From NCBI GenBank assembly GCA_903944555.1, contig CAJASG010000099.1, forward strand, positions 1 to 10,815: a stretch of 10,815 nt of DNA, written 5' to 3'. The stretch's first letter is position 1; every line of letters starts with the position of its first letter. This DNA is from an uncultured beta proteobacterium. Its GTDB lineage: Bacteria > Pseudomonadota > Gammaproteobacteria > Burkholderiales > Burkholderiaceae_C. The notes beneath the pieces were generated by a model. It made no database searches. It was given only the letters and a program-made list of their open reading frames with translations, and was not told the DNA's origin. Both the position numbers and the translations under genes were made by a program. Below, in pieces: positions 94-9,961 of the stretch.

Positions 94-1317
94 TCAGGAT
101 GCAGTTTGAGGATCTGAAAACGCAAACAGCCCCGGGCTGTTCTGCTTGGCAACATACATGGCTTTATCGGCCAGATTGATCAACACCTCGATTGTGTCGC
201 CATCGTTCGGGAAAATGGCGATGCCGATGCTTGCGCTGACCTTTACCGTTTCGCTGCCGGTCTGTATGGGTTGTGAAATGCTGTCGAGTAATTTTTCGGC
301 CACCAGCGCTGCATTTTCCTCGCCGTATATTTCTGTGAGCAGCACGACAAATTCGTCACCGCCATAACGTGCTGCTGTATCGCAGTCACGCACGCAGGCC
401 TGCAAACGGCGGGCAATTTCTTTCAGCACAATGTCGCCGACCGGATGGCCGTAGCGGTCGTTGATCGGTTTGAATCCATCAAGGTCGAGAAAGAGAACCG
501 CCACCTTCATGTCGTGTCGTGACGCCAGGCGGATGGCCTGTTCAAGATGACCGAGCATGAGAAAGCGGTTGGGCAGGCCGGTCAGCGCATCATGTAGCGC
601 CAGATGTTCGATGGCGCGGCGTTCTTCCAGAAGGGCGAGGTGGTGCCGGTCATGCGAGTGCAAAAAAGCCAGCAACATGGCCAGGCTGCCCAGTAGCAGG
701 CCAATCGCGACATATTCGACTTCGCGTTGCGAATCGCGCGCCGCCGCAGATGCCAAACGCAAGGGGATCCCCAGCGATTTGTAATTGCGTATCTGCAGGT
801 ACACGTCTTGCGGCCCCCCGGAAAAATTGTTCAGTTGAAACTCCGGGTAGAGCCCGGGACGTGTCCATTGGCTGACGGGTGTCATGTCTCCGGAAACTTG
901 AGATTCCCATTGGCCTTTGGGGTTGACTTGGTAGAGCACCGCATGATCAAGGTAGGGCAAAGGGATGTGAAGCGTCCAATCGGCGGGGGCATTCGGTGCG
1001 CGCTCCAGTCGCAGGTGAATCCAAAGCGTATTGCGCTCGGACAGCGCATAAATTGTGCCCGCGGGGTGGGGTAAGAACGCACCTCGCGCGCCATCGGCGA
1101 TGGCCGCAATGCCTGCGCTGGGCCCTGTTTCCATCAGCGCGTGGACTCCATCCTGGATATCGAAGGCCGGCTGTGCCGCGCTGAGCAGGTGCGTCTTGAT
1201 GGGCCCTACAGGGAGGGCGCCCGCGAGCGCGGTGGAGGCGGTTCCTGCCGTGCAAAGCATTCCAGCCAACAGCAGTAGGTGCCAAAGTGCACGAACCACA
1301 CCTGCAGCGCTATTCAT
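94..1317 (-). CDS. membrane diguanylate cyclase, DISMED2 sensor, active GGDEF
   Basis: This 407-aa protein probably makes cyclic di-GMP from two GTP at the inner membrane in response to a periplasmic signal. A signal peptide (about 1-32) precedes a 7TMR-DISMED2-like extracytoplasmic domain (about 45-192), one membrane segment (about 201-219), a short linker (220-238) and a GGDEF domain (about 240-400). The catalytic GGDEF motif is intact (319-323), the metal-binding aspartate lies in FLDLDGF (276-282), and an inhibitory-site RxxD (RDCD, 310-313) lies five residues before it, so product feedback is likely. The start ATG overlaps the stop of the upstream gene by four bases (ATGA) and has no clear Shine-Dalgarno, which points to translational coupling. 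The sensor half is clearly paralogous to the upstream protein, but membrane segments 2-7 of a normal 7TMR-DISM protein are missing. The domain calls are from recognition of motifs and order, not a database search. Confidence 0.9.
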   Translation of the reverse strand: MNSAAGVVRALWHLLLLAGMLCTAGTASTALAGALPVGPIKTHLLSAAQPAFDIQDGVHALMETGPSAGIAAIADGARGAFLPHPAGTIYALSERNTLWIHLRLERAPNAPADWTLHIPLPYLDHAVLYQVNPKGQWESQVSGDMTPVSQWTRPGLYPEFQLNNFSGGPQDVYLQIRNYKSLGIPLRLASAAARDSQREVEYVAIGLLLGSLAMLLAFLHSHDRHHLALLEERRAIEHLALHDALTGLPNRFLMLGHLEQAIRLASRHDMKVAVLFLDLDGFKPINDRYGHPVGDIVLKEIARRLQACVRDCDTAARYGGDEFVVLLTEIYGEENAALVAEKLLDSISQPIQTGSETVKVSASIGIAIFPNDGDTIEVLINLADKAMYVAKQNSPGLFAFSDPQTAS

Positions 1318-3071
1318 GTGGGGCTGAGCTCACTTTGCAAGGCCGCTGCTTGGGTCGGCGCGGGTTCTAAAAAGCGGATCGGCCTGCGTGTGTGCGGTGA
1401 CATGCTGACTAAGAGTGCCTCCAGCGCGGGCAGGGCTGTGTCCGGCGCAACGGGGTTTTCATGCAGCAAGACGCAAGCTGCGTGGAACTGCAGTGTGACG
1501 GGAGGGTACAAGCCCGGCAGGGGAATCAGCCCGGATGCAATCAGCTGGACCATGCGCTCGGTCACCGTCTGTCGGGTTGCAACCCCATCGAGCAGCAGCG
1601 CGAAGTGGGCGGTCCCCACCCGACCGGCCGGGTCTACATCCCGCAATATCCGGTGGAGCTTGACGACCGCCCGCAAAAGGCTTTGTTCCGCCACCGGATC
1701 GCCCAGAGACTGCCGGATGTGCGCGTGGTTAATGATGTGCACCAAAACCAGAGAAATGGGTTCGCGGTGTTCTATGGACCGTTGAACGGCATCGTCTAAG
1801 TGGCTTTGGAAGACCTCTCGGGTGAGTAATCCGGTCAGTGCGTCCTGTGTCGGAAGGTGGTTGGCCCGGACCTCAAGTTCCTTGCGGTCGTGGGTGGCGC
1901 GACTCAGCGCGTACACCAGCACGGGCACAGACAATGCGACACAGGCCGAGGTGATGTAGCGCATCTCCCACATCGTGGGCACCCAGCCAAGCGCCTCCGC
2001 CATCAACGCCGAAAGCCCCAGGAACTGCGGCATATAGGCCAGCATCAGCCAGCGCCAAATCGACGATCCACCGAGCCAACTCACGCCCGTCGCACCCAGT
2101 CCAATGACGGTGGCCGTCAGCAAAATGATGTAGCTGATCTTGTCCGCGGCGGACCGGGGCATGACCGCGTACAGCAGCACCGAAGCAATGGTGCCCCACC
2201 CTACGGAGCTCAGGAACGCCTCGTAGCGGTGGAAATGGGTTGACAGCGCGTACAGGTCGCGCACAAAAAGCAAAGCGGCGCCCATCGCAATCAGGGGCAT
2301 GGTGGCGTAGGCGTAGTTCCCCCAATCCGGTACGCTGGCCCATAGGAAGACGTTGAGCACGCCGTTGATCTGTGCCACCGTCAGTGTGATCAGCAGGGCA
2401 TACAAGGAGGCCCAGATGTCCGAGAACTCACCGTGTTCCAGGTAGCGAACGACCGATAGCAGGGACAGGCAGACCAGGGCACCCAGCAGCAAGCCCAGCA
2501 AAATGGCTTCCAGAATGCGTTGGTATTCCCGCTCTGGCTTGGTTGCGAGCCGCAAAGGAATGCTGACGTGTTTGAAATTGCGCACCCGCAGGTACGCTAC
2601 CTGGGTTGCGCCGGTGGTCAGGCTCAGGTCAAACTCAGGGTACAGCCATCTCTTGTTCCAGTTGGCTTGGGCGATGGTGTCCCCCGCCGTTTGCACGTTC
2701 CAGCCGCCAGTGGCATTGGGTTGGTACAAGGTGGCGGAGTCCAAAAAAGGCAGCGGTATGGTGAGGTGCCAGTCGGCGTTGTTGCCGGCAGGACGGAGCA
2801 AATACAGTTTGATCCAAAGCGTGTCCTTGTCCAACAAGGGGTGGCGAGTCAGCGCCAATCCGGAGGTGAAGTTCTTCGGTGAAAGCGCTACCGCTTCGAT
2901 GGTCGCTTTTGAGCTGGTGTCAATCCAGGTCTGAATGTCAGAAGCAATTTCAAAAGACGGGGTGCCATCGCCAAGCACCACGGGTTCAAACGGGGCGGAG
3001 TTTGTGGCCCATGTGGGGTACGCGCAAAGGCACGTTAGTGCGAGCAGCAGCCGCGCAAGCAGGGAAGGCAT
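1314..3071 (-). CDS. 7TMR-DISM protein with degenerate GGDEF domain
   Basis: This 585-aa membrane protein has a signal peptide (about 1-22), a DISMED2-like periplasmic domain (about 35-176), seven hydrophobic segments (about 187-207, 219-243, 253-272, 284-303, 311-330, 338-360 and 371-390) and a C-terminal GGDEF-like domain (about 400-565). The domain begins with the usual DALTGL (410-415), but the catalytic motif reads GTAHF (486-490) in place of GGDEF and the metal-binding aspartate region reads LVHIINHA (443-450). Cyclase activity is therefore unlikely. An RxxD (RDVD, 477-480) remains at the inhibitory-site position, so it could bind cyclic di-GMP or regulate its active neighbour; that is inference. 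The start is supported by GAGGAG (3080-3085 on the complement) eight bases upstream. It is the first gene of a two-gene operon. A weak -10 candidate, TACAAT, lies on the complement of 3122-3127. Confidence 0.88.
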   Translation of the reverse strand: MPSLLARLLLALTCLCAYPTWATNSAPFEPVVLGDGTPSFEIASDIQTWIDTSSKATIEAVALSPKNFTSGLALTRHPLLDKDTLWIKLYLLRPAGNNADWHLTIPLPFLDSATLYQPNATGGWNVQTAGDTIAQANWNKRWLYPEFDLSLTTGATQVAYLRVRNFKHVSIPLRLATKPEREYQRILEAILLGLLLGALVCLSLLSVVRYLEHGEFSDIWASLYALLITLTVAQINGVLNVFLWASVPDWGNYAYATMPLIAMGAALLFVRDLYALSTHFHRYEAFLSSVGWGTIASVLLYAVMPRSAADKISYIILLTATVIGLGATGVSWLGGSSIWRWLMLAYMPQFLGLSALMAEALGWVPTMWEMRYITSACVALSVPVLVYALSRATHDRKELEVRANHLPTQDALTGLLTREVFQSHLDDAVQRSIEHREPISLVLVHIINHAHIRQSLGDPVAEQSLLRAVVKLHRILRDVDPAGRVGTAHFALLLDGVATRQTVTERMVQLIASGLIPLPGLYPPVTLQFHAACVLLHENPVAPDTALPALEALLVSMSPHTRRPIRFLEPAPTQAAALQSELSPT

Positions 3072-3103
3072 ACACTTGTCTCCTCGTTTTTAGAGGTTTT
3101 TTT

Positions 3104-3178
3104 ATGGACTTGGAGTGTGGCATTGTAGGCCTGCACCAGGTAGGGAAATCCCCCCCGTTCGACGCACGGACCAAGGCA
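3104..3178 (+). pseudogene. ychF: ychF 5'-end relic, copy A
   Basis: From ATG at 3104 the frame encodes MDLECGIVGL, then HQVGKS, then PPFDARTKA. This lines up with the N-terminus of the ribosome-associated P-loop ATPase YchF (in E. coli [20 protein letters not shown] and onward). After KA the similarity stops, and the frame runs on without recognisable homology to a TAA at 3275-3277. AGAGG followed by a T run precedes the ATG, the same layout as copy B. Compared with copy B there are many synonymous third-base changes as well as damaged residues (P to H, TL to PP, AL to AR), so this is a diverged fragment rather than a fresh duplicate. It lies in the upstream region of the minus-strand operon. 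Confidence 0.65.
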
Positions 3179-3185
3179 ATATTCC

Positions 3186-3229
3186 GCTGCCACGCAGCAA
3201 GCGTCCATCGGTTGCGGTGCTTCACCGCA
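3186..3229. other. two adjacent small hairpins
   Basis: GCTGC-CAC-GCAGC (3186-3198) and TGCGGTG-CTT-CACCGCA (3213-3229) form neighbouring stem-loops. Each is followed by GCAAG or CAGCAAG, so GCAGCAAG occurs twice (3194 and 3227). There is no T run, so these are not ordinary terminators. They could be structure in a leader RNA or recombination scars. Confidence 0.4.
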
Positions 3230-3282
3230 GCAAGGATTCGCTGCTCATTACAATTGGCATCCATCTTCCAGGGCTAAACGAG

Positions 3283-3314
3283 GACAAAACTTTGCAGGAA
3301 TGCGGTGTTTTGTC
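3283..3314. repeat. 32-bp nested inverted repeat
   Basis: GACAAAAC (3283-3290) is repeated perfectly in inverse as GTTTTGTC (3307-3314). Between them a second small stem, GCA-GGAA-TGC, is placed symmetrically with three unpaired bases on each side. It lies about 100 bases before the best ychF fragment. It may be an operator or RNA structure; nothing identifies the partner. Confidence 0.45.
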
Positions 3315-3416
3315 AGTGGGGTTTTGATCTATTTGGCCCTCGTCATGTGACGCGGGTCCGGCACTCTCACGATGCCCACCTTGGGCTCTATCGTGCTTTG
3401 ATACTTAAGGGTTTTT

Positions 3417-3527
3417 ATGAAATGTGGCATCGTTGGTCTTCCAAACGTCGGTAAATCGACCCTGTTTAACGCCCTGACCAAGGCGGGCATTGCGGCGGAG
3501 AACTACCCCTTAGGCTGGACGAAATAA
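3417..3527 (+). pseudogene. ychF: truncated ychF, copy B (best preserved)
   Basis: ATG at 3417 opens a frame reading [18 protein letters not shown] and then [13 protein letters not shown]. As far as I can recall the family, this is a perfect betaproteobacterial YchF N-terminus including the P-loop (GLPNVGKST, residues 7-15). YchF is normally about 363 aa. Here the match ends inside the codon after CCC (about 3511) and the frame stops at TAA 3525-3527 after only 36 codons, so the ATPase is lost. AAGGG five bases upstream is a good ribosome site, so the short peptide may still be translated. The sequence after the break appears to belong to a different gene. Confidence 0.85.
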
Positions 3528-3603
3528 AAAGGCCAATGGCCTCAAGGACTTCCGTGGATTCGAGGGCGCCGATCGGCAAAGCCAGGACAAAGAATCCCGC
3601 TGA
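3512..3603 (+). pseudogene. possible 3' tail of a lost GGDEF gene
   Basis: Directly after the break in ychF copy B, another frame (codons from 3514) reads [18 protein letters not shown] and ends at TGA 3601-3603. GGDEF domains typically end in an AKxAGRN-type motif, so AGRNKK may be the last part of one, followed by a hydrophilic tail. The terminator that begins 21 bases after this stop supports the idea that a real gene ended here. If so, a deletion joined the start of ychF to the end of a cyclase gene. The match is short and the assignment is an inference. Confidence 0.35.
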
Positions 3604-3612
3604 CAGAAGCAT

Positions 3613-3641
3613 CAACAGGTATGGGCCATCTTAGGATGGCC
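3613..3641 (+). repeat. direct repeat, copy 1 (terminator-associated)
   Basis: CAACAGGTATGGGCCATC followed by TTAGGATGGCC recurs in altered form at 5844-5871, after the chemoreceptor gene (CAACAGGTTTGGCTATC then TTAGGATGCCC). The two share about 25 of 29 bases with one gap. Both lie 9-15 bases after a stop codon and together they bracket the chemoreceptor gene. Confidence 0.5.
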
Positions 3642-3651
3642 TTTGTTTTTT
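3624..3651 (+). terminator. Rho-independent terminator
   Basis: GGCCATC (3624-3630) pairs with GATGGCC (3635-3641) around a TTAG loop, followed by TTTGTTTTTT (3642-3651). This is a standard intrinsic terminator on the + strand. It would end transcription from ychF fragment B or the GGDEF tail before the chemoreceptor gene, so that gene probably has its own promoter in 3652-3788. I see no convincing sigma-70 or FliA-type promoter there. Confidence 0.8.
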
Positions 3652-3788
3652 GTGGCGCTATTCCGTAAAGACGGGCGTGGCACGGGTGTCGTGTAGATGG
3701 CTGGTAGCTGTGTTCGACTTCATAGCCGCCTTACTTGCCACTCACTGGCACTTGCTTCCTGCCATCGTATGCTTAAGTGGTAAAGCAT

Positions 3789-3845
3789 ATGCACTGCGCG
3801 TCTGTGGGTTATCCTTCAATTGGAAAAACCACATTGAGTACCTGA
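3789..3845 (+). CDS. short leader ORF resembling YchF P-loop, copy C
   Basis: ATG at 3789 encodes MHCASVGYPSIGKTTLST and stops at TGA 3843-3845, immediately before and in the same frame as the ATG of the chemoreceptor gene (3846). Nine of 18 residues match [18 protein letters not shown], including the P-loop glycines, lysine and the TL pair, although the DNA is only about half identical to copy B. The upstream bases also resemble those of copy B (ATCGT and CTTAAG are shared). AAGTGG about eight bases upstream could act as a ribosome site. It may be a translated leader peptide coupled to the receptor gene, or a decayed third ychF fragment. Confidence 0.45.
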   Translation: MHCASVGYPSIGKTTLST

Positions 3846-5828
3846 ATGCATTTTCAAGACAATCGCCTCCCGAGGTCAGAAGCAGGATTTTTTGAACACC
3901 ATGGCTGGTTGGCTCCCGGCATTAGGCTGTTTCGCAATCTCAGGTTTCCTGCTAAGTCTGCGTGGGTCGTAGGTGCCATGTTGACTCCGGTGGTAATCCT
4001 GCTTGCCCAGCTATACCGTGCGGATACTGCAAACATCACCACGACCAATATGGAGCGTCAAGGTCTGCGCTATGTCAATGGCGTAACGGACTTGATGCAT
4101 GAACTCATCGCCTTGCGTGCTGCCGCGATGACCAAGGCAACCGATCTGCAACAAAAGCAGTCCAATGTTGATACGGCTTTCGCCAAGATACAGCAACTGG
4201 AAAACGAACTCGGCCCTTTTTTTGGAAGCCAGACCAAAGCGGGCTTCGAGGCGCTAAACAAAAGCGTCCACGATGCAGTTCAAAATCCGGTACGTCCAAG
4301 TGGTGATGAGACTTACGCTGCACATGTCTCCGCATCAGATGCTGCTTTGAAATTGCTCGGAGATATTGGAGATGGCTCCCAGCTCGCGCTGGACCCGGAA
4401 CTGGACACCTATCACCTAATGACGATGGCCGTCACTGTAGGACCTCAATATGCGGAGTACCTGTCACGCCTGCGCGACCTCGCTGCCTTGACCCTGAAGG
4501 ACCACGATGGCAAAGCCGTACCACCACAGCGCCTACGTGCTATGGAGCGGAATTTCACTCTCATCGGCTACATAGACCCGATTTATGAAAACTCATACGG
4601 CAAGGGTATAGAGGCGTTTCCCACGGTTGCGTCCGCCATGGACATGAAAGGAGTGGACAGCACCCGCGAAATTTTCATGGCAATGCTGGCAAAGCAGGTC
4701 CTAATAGATGTGCCTTCTGGCGAAGTCGGGCAGTTTCTGGGCGTAGCCGATGCTGCCATTGAAAAGCAGCTGACGCTTAGTCAGCAAGTCGCGCATCGGC
4801 TTGACGATCAGCTCGTAGCGCGCAACTTACGGATAACAGGTGAGATGCAGACAGGCTTTGCGATTGCCGGTGCATTTTTGTTTGTCGCGTTGTATCTTTT
4901 GCTGTGTTTCTATCGAGTGACCAAGGGGGGGCTGTCGCTCATTAGTGTGCATTTGCAGGAGCTGGCCGAGGGCGATTTGCGACACCGTCCGGTGGAGCCA
5001 CTGGGGAAGGACGAAGCAGCATTGCTCATTGTGGATATGCACAAAGTCTACGACTCGATGCAGGACCTAATTCGTCGGGTGCGTCATTCGGCCAATGAAC
5101 TGGCCAATACTAGCGCGGAAGTGTCTCGTGCCAGCTTGGATTTGTCGCACCGCACCGAGGATGCTGCGTCTAACCTGGGTGTGCAGGCAGGCGCAATGCA
5201 GCACATCAACGATCAGATTAACCAGTCGGCCAATCGCACGCAGGAAGCAGCAGTTATGGCGGGTGGCAACGCCGAGGTTGCCGAGGAGGGCGGACAGATT
5301 ATCGGCAATGTTGTGGATACCATGCGTGCCATTCGGACTTCATCATCCAAGATCAGTGAAATTATCGGCACCATTGACGGCATCGCTTTTCAGACCAATA
5401 TTCTGGCCCTGAATGCAGCGGTGGAGGCTGCGCGTGCTGGGGAGAGTGGCCGTGGTTTTGCAGTAGTTGCCTCGGAGGTGCGTAGCCTAGCGGGTCGCAG
5501 CGCATCGGCGGCTCGCGAAATCAAGGACCTGATCTCCGACAGTGAAGAAAAGGTCATCACCGGAACCCGTGTCGTGGAAGACGCTGGACGGAATATCTCG
5601 GAAATCGTGGCGAACGCCAAGCAGATCAACCTGTTTTTGGATGAGATCTCGCAAGCGACTCGGGAACAAGCATCGGAAGTGGAGCAAGTTGTTAACGCCA
5701 TCGGTCAGTTGGACGCCAACACGCAGCAAAATGCTGCATTGGTGGAAGAGACCAGTGCATCGGCAGAGTCACTCAGCGACCAGGCCACCAAGTTGACTCA
5801 GGAAATTGCCCGTTTTCGCACTTCGTGA
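3846..5828 (+). CDS. methyl-accepting chemotaxis protein
   Basis: This 660-aa transmembrane chemoreceptor should signal through CheW and CheA to control motility. It has a cytoplasmic N-terminal stretch (1-38), membrane segment 1 (about 39-57), a large helical periplasmic domain (about 58-335), membrane segment 2 (about 336-356), a HAMP domain (about 357-410) and the signalling domain (about 430-655). The hairpin tip (EIIGTIDGIAFQTNILALNA, 505-524, and on to about 545) is the highly conserved CheA/CheW contact region. The periplasmic part has the LDPELDTYHLM motif (182-192) seen in related receptors and kinases whose ligands are mostly unknown to me. There is no C-terminal CheR-binding pentapeptide (it ends RFRTS). 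The start at 3846 is the first ATG; it has only a weak TTGAG upstream and directly follows the leader ORF stop, so coupling is likely. Confidence 0.93.
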   Translation: MHFQDNRLPRSEAGFFEHHGWLAPGIRLFRNLRFPAKSAWVVGAMLTPVVILLAQLYRADTANITTTNMERQGLRYVNGVTDLMHELIALRAAAMTKATDLQQKQSNVDTAFAKIQQLENELGPFFGSQTKAGFEALNKSVHDAVQNPVRPSGDETYAAHVSASDAALKLLGDIGDGSQLALDPELDTYHLMTMAVTVGPQYAEYLSRLRDLAALTLKDHDGKAVPPQRLRAMERNFTLIGYIDPIYENSYGKGIEAFPTVASAMDMKGVDSTREIFMAMLAKQVLIDVPSGEVGQFLGVADAAIEKQLTLSQQVAHRLDDQLVARNLRITGEMQTGFAIAGAFLFVALYLLLCFYRVTKGGLSLISVHLQELAEGDLRHRPVEPLGKDEAALLIVDMHKVYDSMQDLIRRVRHSANELANTSAEVSRASLDLSHRTEDAASNLGVQAGAMQHINDQINQSANRTQEAAVMAGGNAEVAEEGGQIIGNVVDTMRAIRTSSSKISEIIGTIDGIAFQTNILALNAAVEAARAGESGRGFAVVASEVRSLAGRSASAAREIKDLISDSEEKVITGTRVVEDAGRNISEIVANAKQINLFLDEISQATREQASEVEQVVNAIGQLDANTQQNAALVEETSASAESLSDQATKLTQEIARFRTS

Positions 5829-5843: not shown

Positions 5844-5871
5844 CAACAGGTTTGGCTATCTTAGGATGCCC
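5844..5871 (+). repeat. direct repeat, copy 2
   Basis: This is the second copy of the 3613-3641 sequence, 15 bases after the chemoreceptor stop codon. Here the stem of the original terminator is broken (GGCTATC against GATGCCC) and no T run follows, so it is unlikely to terminate transcription well. Confidence 0.5.
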
Positions 5872-5886
5872 ACCGGGGAACGCTTT

Positions 5887-5936
5887 CCCAAGCTGATGTG
5901 GATGACTTATCGGACTTCACTGCACATCAACTTGGG
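5887..5936. repeat. 14-bp inverted repeat at convergent gene ends
   Basis: CCCAAGCTGATGTG (5887-5900) is repeated in inverse as CACATCAACTTGGG (5923-5936) with one mismatch and a 22-base spacer. It spans the 3' end of the recombinase gene (stop at 5917-5919), so part of one arm encodes the C-terminus. It may be a bidirectional terminator without T runs or a site used by the recombinase. The sequence alone does not decide. Confidence 0.6.
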
Positions 5937-6666
5937 CGCCGCTATACGCTACCCAAGCGCATTGCAGGCGCTGCTGCTCGTCGGGCTGAAAGGCCGCGGT
6001 GAGTGTTGTAAATAGTCGCTGTACCTGTCCCAGTGACCACGCTCCCCCACGGGGCGCTCTGATCCCCAAGTCGTTCAGTTGCACGACCATCGCGCGCCGC
6101 GTCAAACCCTGTGAAGCGAAACCATTCAGCAAGGGCATCAAACGGGCGCTAAACGCACTGGACACCGCCTGACGCTCTTGGGTATGTCGCTTCAGATTGG
6201 CTGGCCCCGTAGCACCCAACACCACGCCACGCGCTTTCGCAGCAGCCAACGCATCACGGGTGCGCTCACTGATGCGTCGGGCCTCATGTTCTGCAAACGC
6301 TGCCATGATGTGAATGGTCAACTGGTTCGCTTCGGGTAGGTCGCAAGCAACGAACTTGACCTTGCTCTCCATCAAGCCGCTGACGAAGTGAACATTGCGG
6401 GCAAGCCGGTCCAGCTTCGCGATCAATAGCGTCGCTCCAGACTTCTTGCAAAGCTCAAGAGCAGCACGAAGCTCAGGACGACGATCCAAAGCATTGGCAC
6501 CTTTGCCCGTCTCGATCTCAACAAACTCAGCAAAAACGGTTTTAGTGCTTCCCGCAAGGTATTGCGAAACCGTCTGACGTTGGGCATCAAGACCCAAACC
6601 GGAAATGCCCTGTCTTGCGGTGCTGACTCGGAAGTAGGTTACGAATTGATTTTCTGTGGTCGCCAT
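5917..6666 (-). CDS. small serine recombinase (resolvase/invertase family)
   Basis: This 249-aa site-specific recombinase cuts and rejoins DNA through a serine-DNA intermediate. The N-terminal catalytic domain has YFRVST (11-16) with the nucleophile Ser15 and nearby Arg13, LGLDAQRQ (24-31), the conserved KLDRLAR (84-90) and the RISERTR segment (130-136) that leads into the long helix. The C-terminal part contains a helix-turn-helix-like segment with GLTRRAMVVQLNDLGIRAPR (187-206), as in family members that bind inverted half-sites. The start at 6666 is preferred because AAGGG lies seven to eight bases upstream and the conserved fold begins at once; the frame is open 90 codons further upstream but that part has no recognisable sequence. 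The size suits a resolvase, invertase or IS607-unrelated small recombinase rather than a large phage integrase. It converges with the chemoreceptor gene. Confidence 0.9.
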   Translation of the reverse strand: MATTENQFVTYFRVSTARQGISGLGLDAQRQTVSQYLAGSTKTVFAEFVEIETGKGANALDRRPELRAALELCKKSGATLLIAKLDRLARNVHFVSGLMESKVKFVACDLPEANQLTIHIMAAFAEHEARRISERTRDALAAAKARGVVLGATGPANLKRHTQERQAVSSAFSARLMPLLNGFASQGLTRRAMVVQLNDLGIRAPRGGAWSLGQVQRLFTTLTAAFQPDEQQRLQCAWVAYSGAQVDVQ

Positions 6667-6683
6667 GTTGAATCCCTTGCTTG

Positions 6684-7202: not shown

Positions 7203-7230
7203 ATGACAACAGAAAGCAAAGAGAAGATCA

Positions 7231-7290
7231 CTTCACTTCAGTTCAGTTCACTTCACTTCAGTTCAGTTCAGTTCAGTTCAGTTCAGTTCA
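7231..7290. repeat. pentanucleotide tandem repeat, 12 units
   Basis: Twelve consecutive 5-bp units read CTTCA CTTCA GTTCA GTTCA CTTCA CTTCA and then six GTTCA. The minus strand is therefore a run of TGAAC/TGAAG. It begins 13 bases after the stop of the 319-aa gene. The six identical units at one end suggest recent slippage, so copy number may vary between strains. Such short direct repeats could bind a replication protein, or simply be a microsatellite. Confidence 0.95.
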
Positions 7291-7302: not shown

Positions 7303-8262
7303 TCAAGCCTTCATACGTCTAGTCAGTTCCCTTAACGCAGAGTAGGTCAACGCATTCAAATCAAAATCGGCCGCGGTGCCGGACGAGAAGTGTCGAGTCC
7401 CACCGTGAAGACGCTTTCTTAACTGGCGTTGCCCTACTTGGTCAATATGCTCAAGTCCATACCGTGCAAAAGGATTCAGTCGTGTCTTGAGCTTCCTGTA
7501 CTTGAAGTACCCAGCATCTGACGTAAAGTCATGTTCAGTCCAGCCTTGCAGGTCATGGTGCTTCAAGTCCTGACCTGAAAACGTGAATTCAGTTCTGGCT
7601 CTCTGTTCGGCTTCGGGTAAGACGTGAACAACATTGTCCCGCTTGGTCGTTTCCTTCACATACATGTGCTGGTACGTCGAATCAGACTGGTTTCCCACAT
7701 AGATATTGAATCCCTCGCTGACACGCCTTCTCAAGCCTTTGAATGATCCAATCCCTTGAGAGCTACCTTTGCCCTCGCCAGAGGTGCGGCGGTTGTCAGA
7801 GGTCATCACGGTAGCGAACTTGAAAAAGCGTGCAACCATGTCCACCAGCTCCTGCCGGTTCTGAGTGCGACTATATGCATCCATCGCAATCTCAATGCCG
7901 GTGACCTGCACCGCTACTGCCAATGGATGATCATGGGTCAACTTCTCAAGCCTCTCATAAATACTGGTCCAGCTTGTCGGCTCCTGGATTCTCACAGTGA
8001 ACTCCGTAGCAGCCCCGCCAAGCCCCTTATCCAGCGGTTTGGCGAACGCAATGCCCATCCTGGTTCGCACGGTGTCAAAGTTGGTTGGGCGCGCTGTGAC
8101 GATCCTGAGGTCGATCCAGTCAATCACTGCTCGGAAGCGGTAATTTGCGTATGGCTTGACGCTGCTGCTAGTGAGCAATCGAAAGGTTGTCGGCTCCGGT
8201 GGCATGGCCGTAAAAGTTGTGGTTCCTTCGGCTTCTTGGGTCAGATTGGCAATATGGTTCAT
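7303..8262 (-). CDS. hypothetical protein, candidate replication initiator
   Basis: I do not recognise this 319-aa protein with certainty. It has no signal peptide or membrane segment and is basic and probably cytoplasmic. YRFRAVIDWIDLRIVTARP (41-59), AVQVTGIEIAMDAYSRT (117-133) and YVKETTKRDN (201-210) followed by LPEAEQRARTEFTFSG (215-230) loosely recall the layout of phage/plasmid replication initiation factors (Rep_trans or RstA-like: a DxxxL strand, a xIExAxD strand, then a YxK segment and a RxE strand). No HUH motif was seen. The start at 8262 is chosen for AAAGGGA about seven bases upstream; the frame is open 29 codons further, without support. It lies downstream of a replicative helicase on the same strand and before a tandem repeat, which suits an initiator role. 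Function is inference. Confidence 0.75.
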   Translation of the reverse strand: MNHIANLTQEAEGTTTFTAMPPEPTTFRLLTSSSVKPYANYRFRAVIDWIDLRIVTARPTNFDTVRTRMGIAFAKPLDKGLGGAATEFTVRIQEPTSWTSIYERLEKLTHDHPLAVAVQVTGIEIAMDAYSRTQNRQELVDMVARFFKFATVMTSDNRRTSGEGKGSSQGIGSFKGLRRRVSEGFNIYVGNQSDSTYQHMYVKETTKRDNVVHVLPEAEQRARTEFTFSGQDLKHHDLQGWTEHDFTSDAGYFKYRKLKTRLNPFARYGLEHIDQVGQRQLRKRLHGGTRHFSSGTAADFDLNALTYSALRELTRRMKA

Positions 8263-8304
8263 ATGGGGTTCCCTTTCATTTGGATAATTTGGTTGGCTGT
8301 GTTT

Positions 8305-8319
8305 CCGCCACGGTGGCGG
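8305..8319. other. short perfect hairpin
   Basis: CCGCCAC-G-GTGGCGG is a 7-bp inverted repeat around a single base. It lies in the gap between the two minus-strand element genes, close to the larger inverted repeat at 8321-8414. It could be part of an origin or a processing site. Confidence 0.4.
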
Positions 8320-8320
8320 G

Positions 8321-8414
8321 GTGCCAGGATTGGTTTTGACAAATTCCAAGTGCAGTGCTGTCGGTTTCCGATCACTGACACCACCGTAGAAATAAGTAAA
8401 AACAACCCTGGCAC
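8321..8414. repeat. imperfect inverted repeat in gap before candidate initiator
   Basis: GTGCCAGGATTGGTTTT (from 8321) and the complement of the stretch ending at 8414 (GTGCCAGGGTTGTTTTT) match at 8 of 8 bases and then at most positions, about 19 of 27 in all, with some 40 bases between the arms. This is unusual for a simple intergenic gap and may be an initiator-binding or origin region. Confidence 0.45.
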
Positions 8415-8415
8415 G

Positions 8416-8430
8416 CTGTCAAGCTGACAG
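8416..8430 (-). terminator. small hairpin after helicase gene
   Basis: CTGTCA-AGC-TGACAG lies one base after the helicase stop. In the minus direction a TTGTTTTT run follows some 16 bases later. It could be a weak terminator or attenuator between the helicase and downstream genes; the gap between stem and T run makes this uncertain. Confidence 0.3.
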
Positions 8431-8431
8431 A

Positions 8432-9961
8432 TCAAAGAAGTGCCGGCGATGCCTTTGTGAACTCGCAAGACCAGTCGGCACGGTCTTGGATTGCCCACTT
8501 GGCATGATTGCGCAACGTCACTACTTGGACGCGCTTACCACGCACCGAAATCCGGTCCTGCGCGTAATCAAGGTGTTTCTTTCTCAGTGCCATGCTCATG
8601 GCCTTGGGCGTCGTTCGCACGGCGCCGGTGTCATGCTGGTACACCCGCACCAATTCCGCTAATGTCACGATTTCTCTGCGGATGTGGTTGTCGATGTAGT
8701 CATCGGTCATTGCGTCGGACATCCACTGATCCAGATCTGACTTGCTCAGTTCGATCATCGCCAGCTTGGCTTTGGTCATCGGTGCGTGGCCATGCGGGTC
8801 GAATCCGGTCATGTCCACGTGAAGCATGTGATCCATCAGAGCGGCCAGACCCTTGGCAGACTTAACCCAGGTGCCGATTGCCTCGTAGAAGGCGGCTTCC
8901 CGTTTTGGCGTAACCGCGTTCCAAACAAAGTAGCGCCTGTCATCATCGTCGAGTGTGAGTGCGTCGGCGTGATTAGACGTAAAGATGAAGTTCATCTGGT
9001 TGCGGCATTCAAACGCGGTGCGGTACTTTTCCTCAATGAAAACGGTAGGCCCAGTAACAAGTTGCTTTAGCTTGTTCGCTTCAGCTCGCTGGTCGTGGTT
9101 CTTCTCCTCGCCAAAGACCAGCAGGGCATCGTGCGCCCAGCCGTTGTACTTGCTTTTTAGCAGCGTGTCTGTGATGGTCTTGAAGTGCCCAGCATAGAGT
9201 TTGCCAACGCATTCGGCCACCATCGTCTTGCCAATGCCCTGCGCACCCCAAATCACCATGGCCGTGTTCATCTTCTTGCCGGGGTTCTGTATCGGATAGG
9301 CAAACCACTGTTGCGCCCAGGTTCGTTCCGGTGTACCTGCGCCAAATAGCTGGTTCAGAAGGTCATTCCATGGGGAAACATCACCCGCGACCGGCGCAAT
9401 GGCCCACCGTTTCCAAAGATTGATGCGGTCATTGACGATCGGAGCGCCACCAGGGGCAAAGGTGACATCAACATGCTCGCGGCGGTCTGCGGAATGCATC
9501 CATGCATCGAAGTGGGTGGATCGCTTTTGCTTGTCGCCGTTCATCAGCATGACGCTGGTGTTGGCGTAGTGGGTTTTCAGTGCGTCTTTCTTAACAATGC
9601 AGCGGTTCTCAAGGTCAAAGATTGCCTTCGGCCCTGACAACCAGACGTACTTCTTGTTGAGGATGGCCACTACCTTGTCCGCGGCAGTTTCAGCACGCTC
9701 GGCAGACTTCTTGGCTATACGATTTACTGCGGCTAGGTATGCGATGACTTTGCGTTCGACATCGGCAGGTGGCAATGGTGTGACAAAGTTGTTGGCACTG
9801 CACAACTGGCAAAGTTTGATGGCGAAGGCATTGTCTTTTCCTGCCTTGACTGCCCTTTGAACAAGGATGCTTATCGTTGCATCCCGCTTTATATCTGCGA
9901 CCTTCGGTGCGGTCGTGGTTGGCGCTACAGCGGATGATGTCTTGTCGATTATCTGAGTCAT
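8432..9961 (-). CDS. superfamily 3 helicase, DUF5906-like primase-helicase
   Basis: This 509-aa protein is a probable replicative helicase of a mobile element. The C-terminal half has a Walker A motif (GAQGIGKT, 239-246), a Walker B (LLVFGEE, 280-286), a superfamily 3 motif C with sensor asparagine (NFIFTSN, 324-330) and a likely arginine finger in DDDDRRYF (338-345). These fit the DUF5906 family found in phages, satellites and integrated plasmids. The N-terminal 230 residues carry no primase motif that I can see, so primase activity is unproven. A C-terminal region (about 420-490) could be a winged-helix DNA-binding part. The start at 9961 is supported by AAGGGAG six bases upstream; an open extension of 25 codons has no ribosome site. 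It lies upstream of the candidate initiator on the same strand. Confidence 0.9.
   Translation of the reverse strand: MTQIIDKTSSAVAPTTTAPKVADIKRDATISILVQRAVKAGKDNAFAIKLCQLCSANNFVTPLPPADVERKVIAYLAAVNRIAKKSAERAETAADKVVAILNKKYVWLSGPKAIFDLENRCIVKKDALKTHYANTSVMLMNGDKQKRSTHFDAWMHSADRREHVDVTFAPGGAPIVNDRINLWKRWAIAPVAGDVSPWNDLLNQLFGAGTPERTWAQQWFAYPIQNPGKKMNTAMVIWGAQGIGKTMVAECVGKLYAGHFKTITDTLLKSKYNGWAHDALLVFGEEKNHDQRAEANKLKQLVTGPTVFIEEKYRTAFECRNQMNFIFTSNHADALTLDDDDRRYFVWNAVTPKREAAFYEAIGTWVKSAKGLAALMDHMLHVDMTGFDPHGHAPMTKAKLAMIELSKSDLDQWMSDAMTDDYIDNHIRREIVTLAELVRVYQHDTGAVRTTPKAMSMALRKKHLDYAQDRISVRGKRVQVVTLRNHAKWAIQDRADWSCEFTKASPALL

Follow-up and report, generated by a model that had tools for sequence, protein, structure and literature searches.

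The locus described here raises the question of why a short stretch of bacterial DNA should carry three frames that begin like YchF. The gene ychF encodes a universally conserved translation-associated ATPase. The window, meaning the whole stretch of DNA analysed (10,815 bp), is the entire contig C99 of a 4.07 Mb genome in 792 contigs that is about 91% complete. C131 is a second contig of that genome, and L and G numbers denote the loci and genomes compared. A preliminary description had offered two readings of the frames, called A, B and C: scars left where mobile elements had integrated in the 5' end of ychF, or leader peptides that imitate the YchF P-loop. The features discussed below are as follows.

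1314-3071, reverse strand: 7TMR-DISM/GGDEF gene (Pfam), native left neighbour of ychF and divergent from it in empty-site genomes
3042-3178, forward strand: fragment A, a decayed form of the host's native ychF leader with codons 1-23 (ATG at 3104); first attL remnant (DNA alignment, position)
3179-3260, reverse strand: 5' remnant of the first island's integrase gene (tblastn; DNA alignment to the right end of L089 from 3172)
3261-3416, forward strand: right end belonging to the first island, with AAACGAGGACAAAA at 3276-3289 (alignment with the right ends of L089, L069, L156 and L005)
3351-3396, reverse strand: inverted copy of ychF codons ~33-48, before B (blastn, 80% over 46 bases on the reverse strand; translation)
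3417-3512, forward strand: fragment B, ychF codons 1-31/32 from the first island, now attL of the second (identity to intact ychF; shared break point)
3510-3660, forward strand: conserved left end of the second island, with an early stop codon followed by a terminator-like hairpin (recurrence after truncated ychF; terminator scan)
3789-3842, forward strand: fragment C, a P-loop-like frame of 18 codons (score against shuffles)
3846-5828, forward strand: methyl-accepting chemotaxis protein (MCP), probable island cargo (Pfam; best homologue in the genus 66% over residues 8-356)
5844-5871, forward strand: gapped second copy of the tail of the left end, located just past the stop codon of the MCP gene (gapped alignment)
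5917-6675, reverse strand: small serine recombinase of resolvase/invertase type (Pfam, PHROGs; 62-89% homologues in islands L067, L091, L163 and L164)
7303-8349, reverse strand: 348-aa protein, probable island gene (no Pfam or PHROG match; 48% homologue near an integrase piece in L096)
8432-9961, reverse strand: primase/helicase-like replication protein, probable island gene (DUF5906/VapE-like; phrog_1156, DNA primase)

Results

YchF-like starts in the window

The best 18-residue matches to the YchF start in the window scored 96 (B), 56 (A) and 50 (C), followed by a next-best score of 26. Because the score never rose above 31 in 60 shuffled windows (649 kb), all three starts exceed chance. A search with the YchF profile, suggested earlier as a check, was run on the whole genome; it returned the single intact ychF on C131 (495.6 bits), then fragment B (42.7 bits) and two weaker matches elsewhere in open frames of 396 and 177 amino acids, with neither A nor C among the matches. 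The intact gene, sought elsewhere in the genome as had been recommended, stands beside a divergent 381-aa tyrosine integrase (Pfam PF00589 and Arm-DNA-bind_3); the starts of the two genes are 168 bp apart, and the integrase gene is directed away from ychF.

Fragment C scored 48 against a generic DRG P-loop, and stretches resembling other GTPases in the fetched DNA scored 46-58. Based upon these scores, C is best described from its sequence as GTPase P-loop-like and not specifically YchF. The original description of three YchF look-alikes applied to B by the profile search and to A by DNA alignment and position. The region of C had no DNA match in the 102 other genomes of the genus. The DNA upstream of C and of B, described earlier as alike, showed no significant similarity. 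An assignment of C as an island end was considered and rejected: in addition to its absence from those genomes, its upstream DNA did not resemble seven right ends (shuffle fractions 0.07-0.73). C could not be tied to islands.

Fragment A and the first island

Eight genomes with an empty site were fetched (L074, L075, L077-L081 and L083). The GGDEF gene is divergent from ychF in all eight, with similar leaders, and the spacing is 37-38 bp in seven; in the eighth, L080, the GGDEF homologue matches only from residue 19. The corresponding spacing between A and the GGDEF gene is 39 bp. Over window 3042-3178, the leader and start of A agreed with the native locus L083 of a related genome in 113 of the 134 bases aligned. 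The neighbour at this distance, the same type of leader and the L083 alignment together identify A as the original host start, an identity that rests on DNA alignment and position: A had no Pfam match, and its weak tblastn match (E 2e-4) was no longer listed against a larger database. Over codons 1-23 (A aligned from 3110), A and B share 48 of 69 bases; ten codons differ synonymously and eight non-synonymously. The earlier view that A and B come from different lineages was borne out, A being the native start and B a start brought by an earlier island.

At 3172-3178 A gives way to the 5' part of an integrase gene, whose residues 1-51 matched at 3260-3123 on the reverse strand (tblastn, 45% identity, one stop). 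The remainder of the first island appears from the alignments to have been deleted, with a junction near 3172-3178. What follows is its right end, which leads directly into B; window positions 3216-3386 matched the right end on C131 at 69% of the DNA. A consensus scan for a right-end promoter found none in window 3040-3900 or in L005 3600-4100. In genome G072 (L076), the GGDEF gene has a weak ychF-like piece 46 bp away (E 0.69) and an intact ychF 4.3 kb on. This locus may be a further fossil island site.

Fragment B and the left end of the second island

Fragment B was identical to the intact ychF on C131 at 90 of 96 bases, after which the match stopped at ENYP, as first reported; its break point equals that of eight other fragments. 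Past the junction the frame reads ENYPLGWTK and then stops. The DNA at this junction, the conserved left end, was found in five copies in four of 100 genomes of the genus, each directly 3' of a truncated ychF, and also in L091 and L163. It was unrecognisable in L164 and L165, which counts against the island interpretation. A terminator scan placed a terminator-like hairpin with a T run at window 3623-3642, and this hairpin was seen in five of six left ends aligned (the window, L066, L067 and both L068 copies), being degenerate in L091. It presumably keeps host transcription out of the island.

The copy of the left-end tail after the MCP gene suggests a possible third, disrupted left end; the absence of a ychF start directly before it also weighs against the island interpretation. 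Left ends were further searched for an inverted ychF copy such as that described below, which visual inspection had suggested, and this was rejected (short, weak alignments in six left ends, shuffle fractions 0.03-0.57).

Recurrence of the layout and integrase specificity

Seven other genomes, three of them from other genera, share one layout: a ychF truncated at codon 31/32, an island, an integrase or its remnant, and an intact ychF with an island-supplied 5' end. The recurrence of such fragments at the ends of integrated elements, raised in the preliminary description as something to look for, was thereby found. Leaving A aside, nine truncated fragments were identified in eight genomes, namely B, one each in G104, G086, L091, G489, G479 and G250, and two in G012. 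Copies ending at residue 32 numbered at least four besides the window (G104, G086 and two in G012) when the first 41 YchF residues were used to query 100 genus genomes, a scan whose matches were listed to about E 1e-7 and which may miss strongly decayed copies. Only weaker YchF N-terminal matches (best E about 1e-8 or weaker) were seen in 13 of the 100 genomes (G008, G010, G011, G017, G019, G025, G027, G030, G061, G064, G080, G085 and G101), possibly reflecting incomplete assembly or breaks at ychF repeats. Whole islands between a truncated and an intact ychF measure about 7.0 kb in G489, 10.4 kb in G479 and 5.1 kb in G250, and in L091, a locus from a metagenome-assembled genome, the truncated start and left end lie 9.6 kb from the integrase.

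Integrases of at least 57% identity adjoined a ychF start in all 16 loci with a readable 5' side (L005, L066-L072, L089-L095 and L099). These include remnants, among them L066 and L068-L071, of which the L068 remnant adjoins a truncated ychF start; pieces lacking the 5' end of the integrase gene (L073, L096, L097, a second piece in L069 and one in G013) were left uncounted. A scan of GTDB species gave four more integrase loci, L091 among them, all beside ychF, and a family scan of 399 genomes gave relatives in other genera, where L093, L094, L095 and L099 adjoin ychF. Of the integrases below 35% identity (L098 and L100-L109, n=11), none of the 10 readable had a ychF start beside it, L103 being cut at the contig start. 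On our reading of the matches, at least 15 of 103 genus genomes have a right end at ychF, and L076 and L162 look like two more; the right-end query itself matched 82 of the 103, mostly because its inverted stretch matches ychF coding DNA.

Beside the right ends ychF has intact frames (for example, 361 aa in L005 and 363 aa in L067). The elements combine the marks of integrative islands: a tyrosine recombinase beside the target, direct repeats (attL/attR) and a reconstituted target gene. None of 39 stretches that matched a pattern in a viral contig set encodes a relative of the integrase, none of 10 proteins scanned had a structural-category PHROG, and 12 records of a plasmid collection had integrase matches, the best among the matches listed at 28%. 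The direct observations comprise how the sequences are arranged, that this arrangement recurs, and that the integrase clade is specific. A and B are genuine ychF starts that mark integration sites, and from these marks, the recurrent layout and the integrase specificity it follows that the window holds the traces of two islands: the first is nearly erased, and the second is represented by its left part. C99 and C131 probably flank the same second island; they are separate contigs and the island is seen in parts, which is a point against this reconstruction.

Crossover site and cargo

Codons 1-31 were compared between the two ends of single islands. They were identical in L163 (93 of 93 bases, 1320-1412 and 8345-8437), and differed at one base in L067 and L091 and at ten in L165; the block in L164 was identical at 96 of 96 bases (7393-7488 and 17823-17918). 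The DNA before the start codon was unrelated between the ends in L163, L164 and L066. Given a shared block below unrelated leaders, the crossover falls inside this block, most likely near its end. That this integrase catalyses integration, like any more exact position of the crossover, is inferred from the sequences. Complete identity of codons 1-31 despite unrelated leaders suggests within-species transfer or gene conversion, and the near-identity in some islands exceeds what carriage between species would predict, which tells against the preferred explanation.

Cargo varies among islands. The small serine recombinase is common (the window, L067, L091, L163, L164 and L165, with pieces in L068 and L097), while the L164 island carries the type I restriction-modification genes HsdM, HsdS and HsdR (7637-13832) and that of L067 encodes YaaC-like and DUF2971 proteins. 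A run of short tandem repeats (CTTCA/GTTCA) was noted by eye in the window at about 7228-7290, in the gap that separates the serine recombinase gene from that of the 348-aa protein.

An inverted copy of ychF sequence

In most right ends examined, ychF codons ~32-47 recur as an inverted copy shortly before the replaced start, 14-35 bases upstream of the replaced start region. In 18 loci, gapped local alignments gave 47 to 68 identical out of 61 to 79 bases. The copy is deleted in G117 (L157), the sole clear loss among the loci read, and poor in L162.

Across 24 loci, the copy was more similar to the ychF of its own genome (0.814) than to those of others (0.769), a value reached in none of 20,000 permutations; at third codon positions the figures were 0.663 and 0.559, and for the 20 loci without L093-L095 and L099 they were 0.805 and 0.766. 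A control that preserved only G+C class at third positions gave 269 versus 256 (P 0.014), and composition therefore explains part of the own-host match. Host tracking is an average trend and does not hold locus by locus: the own host was best or tied best in six of 18 loci (L067, L068, L071, L092, L093 and L095) and ranked 14th in L005, 16th in L069, 10th in L070 and 12th in L094. Differences between copy and gene concentrated at third codon positions (140 of 426) compared with the other two (70 of 436 and 71 of 430). Selection at the RNA level through G-U pairs was considered as well. Own-host alignments had 100 wobble-type and 34 other transitions (58 and 28 in fixed columns), a bias nearly equal in pairings with other hosts (0.674 versus 0.649, P 0.08). 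The G-U share of all mismatches was 0.411 for the own host versus 0.357 (P 0.0005), which may only reflect fewer transversions.

When the region from -95 to +150 was folded, z-scores ranged from -1.9 to -14.8 across 18 island loci, compared with -1.7 to 0.7 for 8 native loci. A long hairpin around the ychF start can thus form in the model, and the position of the transcript start would decide whether the RNA includes the copy. A coding role, as a leader fused to the integrase gene, was rejected as a general rule; the frame is open and ends at the integrase start (TGATG) in L005, L070 and L072, and is broken or shifted in most other loci translated.

Insofar as the copy has an explanation, we give about an even chance to its being a neutral relic kept host-like by replication template switching between the arms of the inverted repeat. 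Homogenisation of inverted repeats by template switching has been reported (PMC8604942, PMC8794818). The relic interpretation accords with the tracking of the host and with the excess of third-position differences, as expected for copies of functional genes; it sits poorly with a position and orientation kept across five genera, where neutral DNA should be lost. It appears unlikely, though conceivable, that the copy has a function for the island, sensing integration in cis, altering how ychF or the divergent integrase gene is expressed and being partly re-matched to each new host. If so, pairing of the copy with the true codons 32-47 would be possible only in an island integrated in ychF, and the ychF mRNA would acquire a long hairpin around its start. 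Host tracking would be explained by template switching without function, and by selection for pairing as well. A search of the open-access literature on inverted repeats, attP and template switching found nothing relevant among the papers listed.

Discussion

It is very probable that the window belongs to a family of small integrative islands whose dedicated tyrosine integrase acts inside ychF codons 1-32, with the exchange most likely close to the end of this block, and that two such islands have passed through this genome. Upon integration, the host's old ychF leader and codons 1-31 would be left at the far end (attL), where an early stop codon and, in five of the six left ends aligned, a terminator-like hairpin terminate them. 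The near end (attR) would keep ychF intact by providing it with another leader, start codon and codons 1-31. For the genome studied here, the first island would have left A as the native start and B as the replacement start before being almost wholly deleted; a second would then have integrated at B and displaced the working ychF to contig C131. The proposal of integration scars holds for A and B, given that sites without an island, junctions of attL type, an integrase beside ychF and islands seen whole were all found. Fragment C does not fit this picture and counts against it.

Two further accounts of the fragments seem very improbable to us, and about equally so. Regulatory leader peptides, mimics of the YchF P-loop that control the genes downstream, would suit short open frames with start codons, and C does end directly before the MCP start codon (TGA then ATG). 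Against this, A and B differ by those non-synonymous changes in 8 of 23 codons, A lies at nearly native ychF spacing, and B-like frames were found only at island ends, which makes the idea superfluous for A and B; for C, no similar frame occurs upstream of 13 readable homologues of the following MCP gene, a fourteenth homologue being cut off. The fragments might instead be debris of local duplication or homologous recombination at ychF, arising without a dedicated integrase. Conversion could account for codons 1-31 being almost identical at both ends of some islands, but such debris would not be expected to break constantly at codon 31/32, to have recurrent left and right ends, or to be accompanied by an integrase beside the ychF start in every readable locus of the clade.

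With the island family as the preferred reading, ychF joins the genes whose 5' ends are captured by mobile islands. Such sites form a readable record, in which A and B document two successive islands, one nearly erased. To our knowledge, a host-tracking inverted copy of target-gene sequence is unknown from other integration systems, and it makes island control of the captured gene a testable question.

The kind of element is known and its mechanism ordinary; the ychF target and the mirror copy appear new. As an island target, ychF was not found in the open-access literature searched, where the only relevant case among the papers listed was an intergenic one in pneumococcus. There, Int of prophages adjoins ychF, as in the islands described here, and a defective prophage is described as a ychF expression switch (PMC10383233, PMC8637289); integration is intergenic, upstream of ychF, at a 26 bp att site, whereas here it would fall within codons 1-32. 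Streptococcal ICEs resemble the ychF islands in that they enter essential genes at the 5' end and preserve the reading frame; they differ in their targets (ftsK, rbgA and ebfC) and in an N-terminus described as unmodified (PMC4701971). There is also a likeness to dusA-associated islands, in which an integrase lies where a conserved housekeeping gene begins, the island replaces the 5' end of that gene and the cargo varies (PMC4482086). Unlike these, the islands described here target ychF in 16 of 16 readable loci, and their right end includes the inverted copy of target-gene sequence. The ychF integrase shares 24-28% identity with Acinetobacter integrases from the plasmid collection, which may or may not be of the dusA type.
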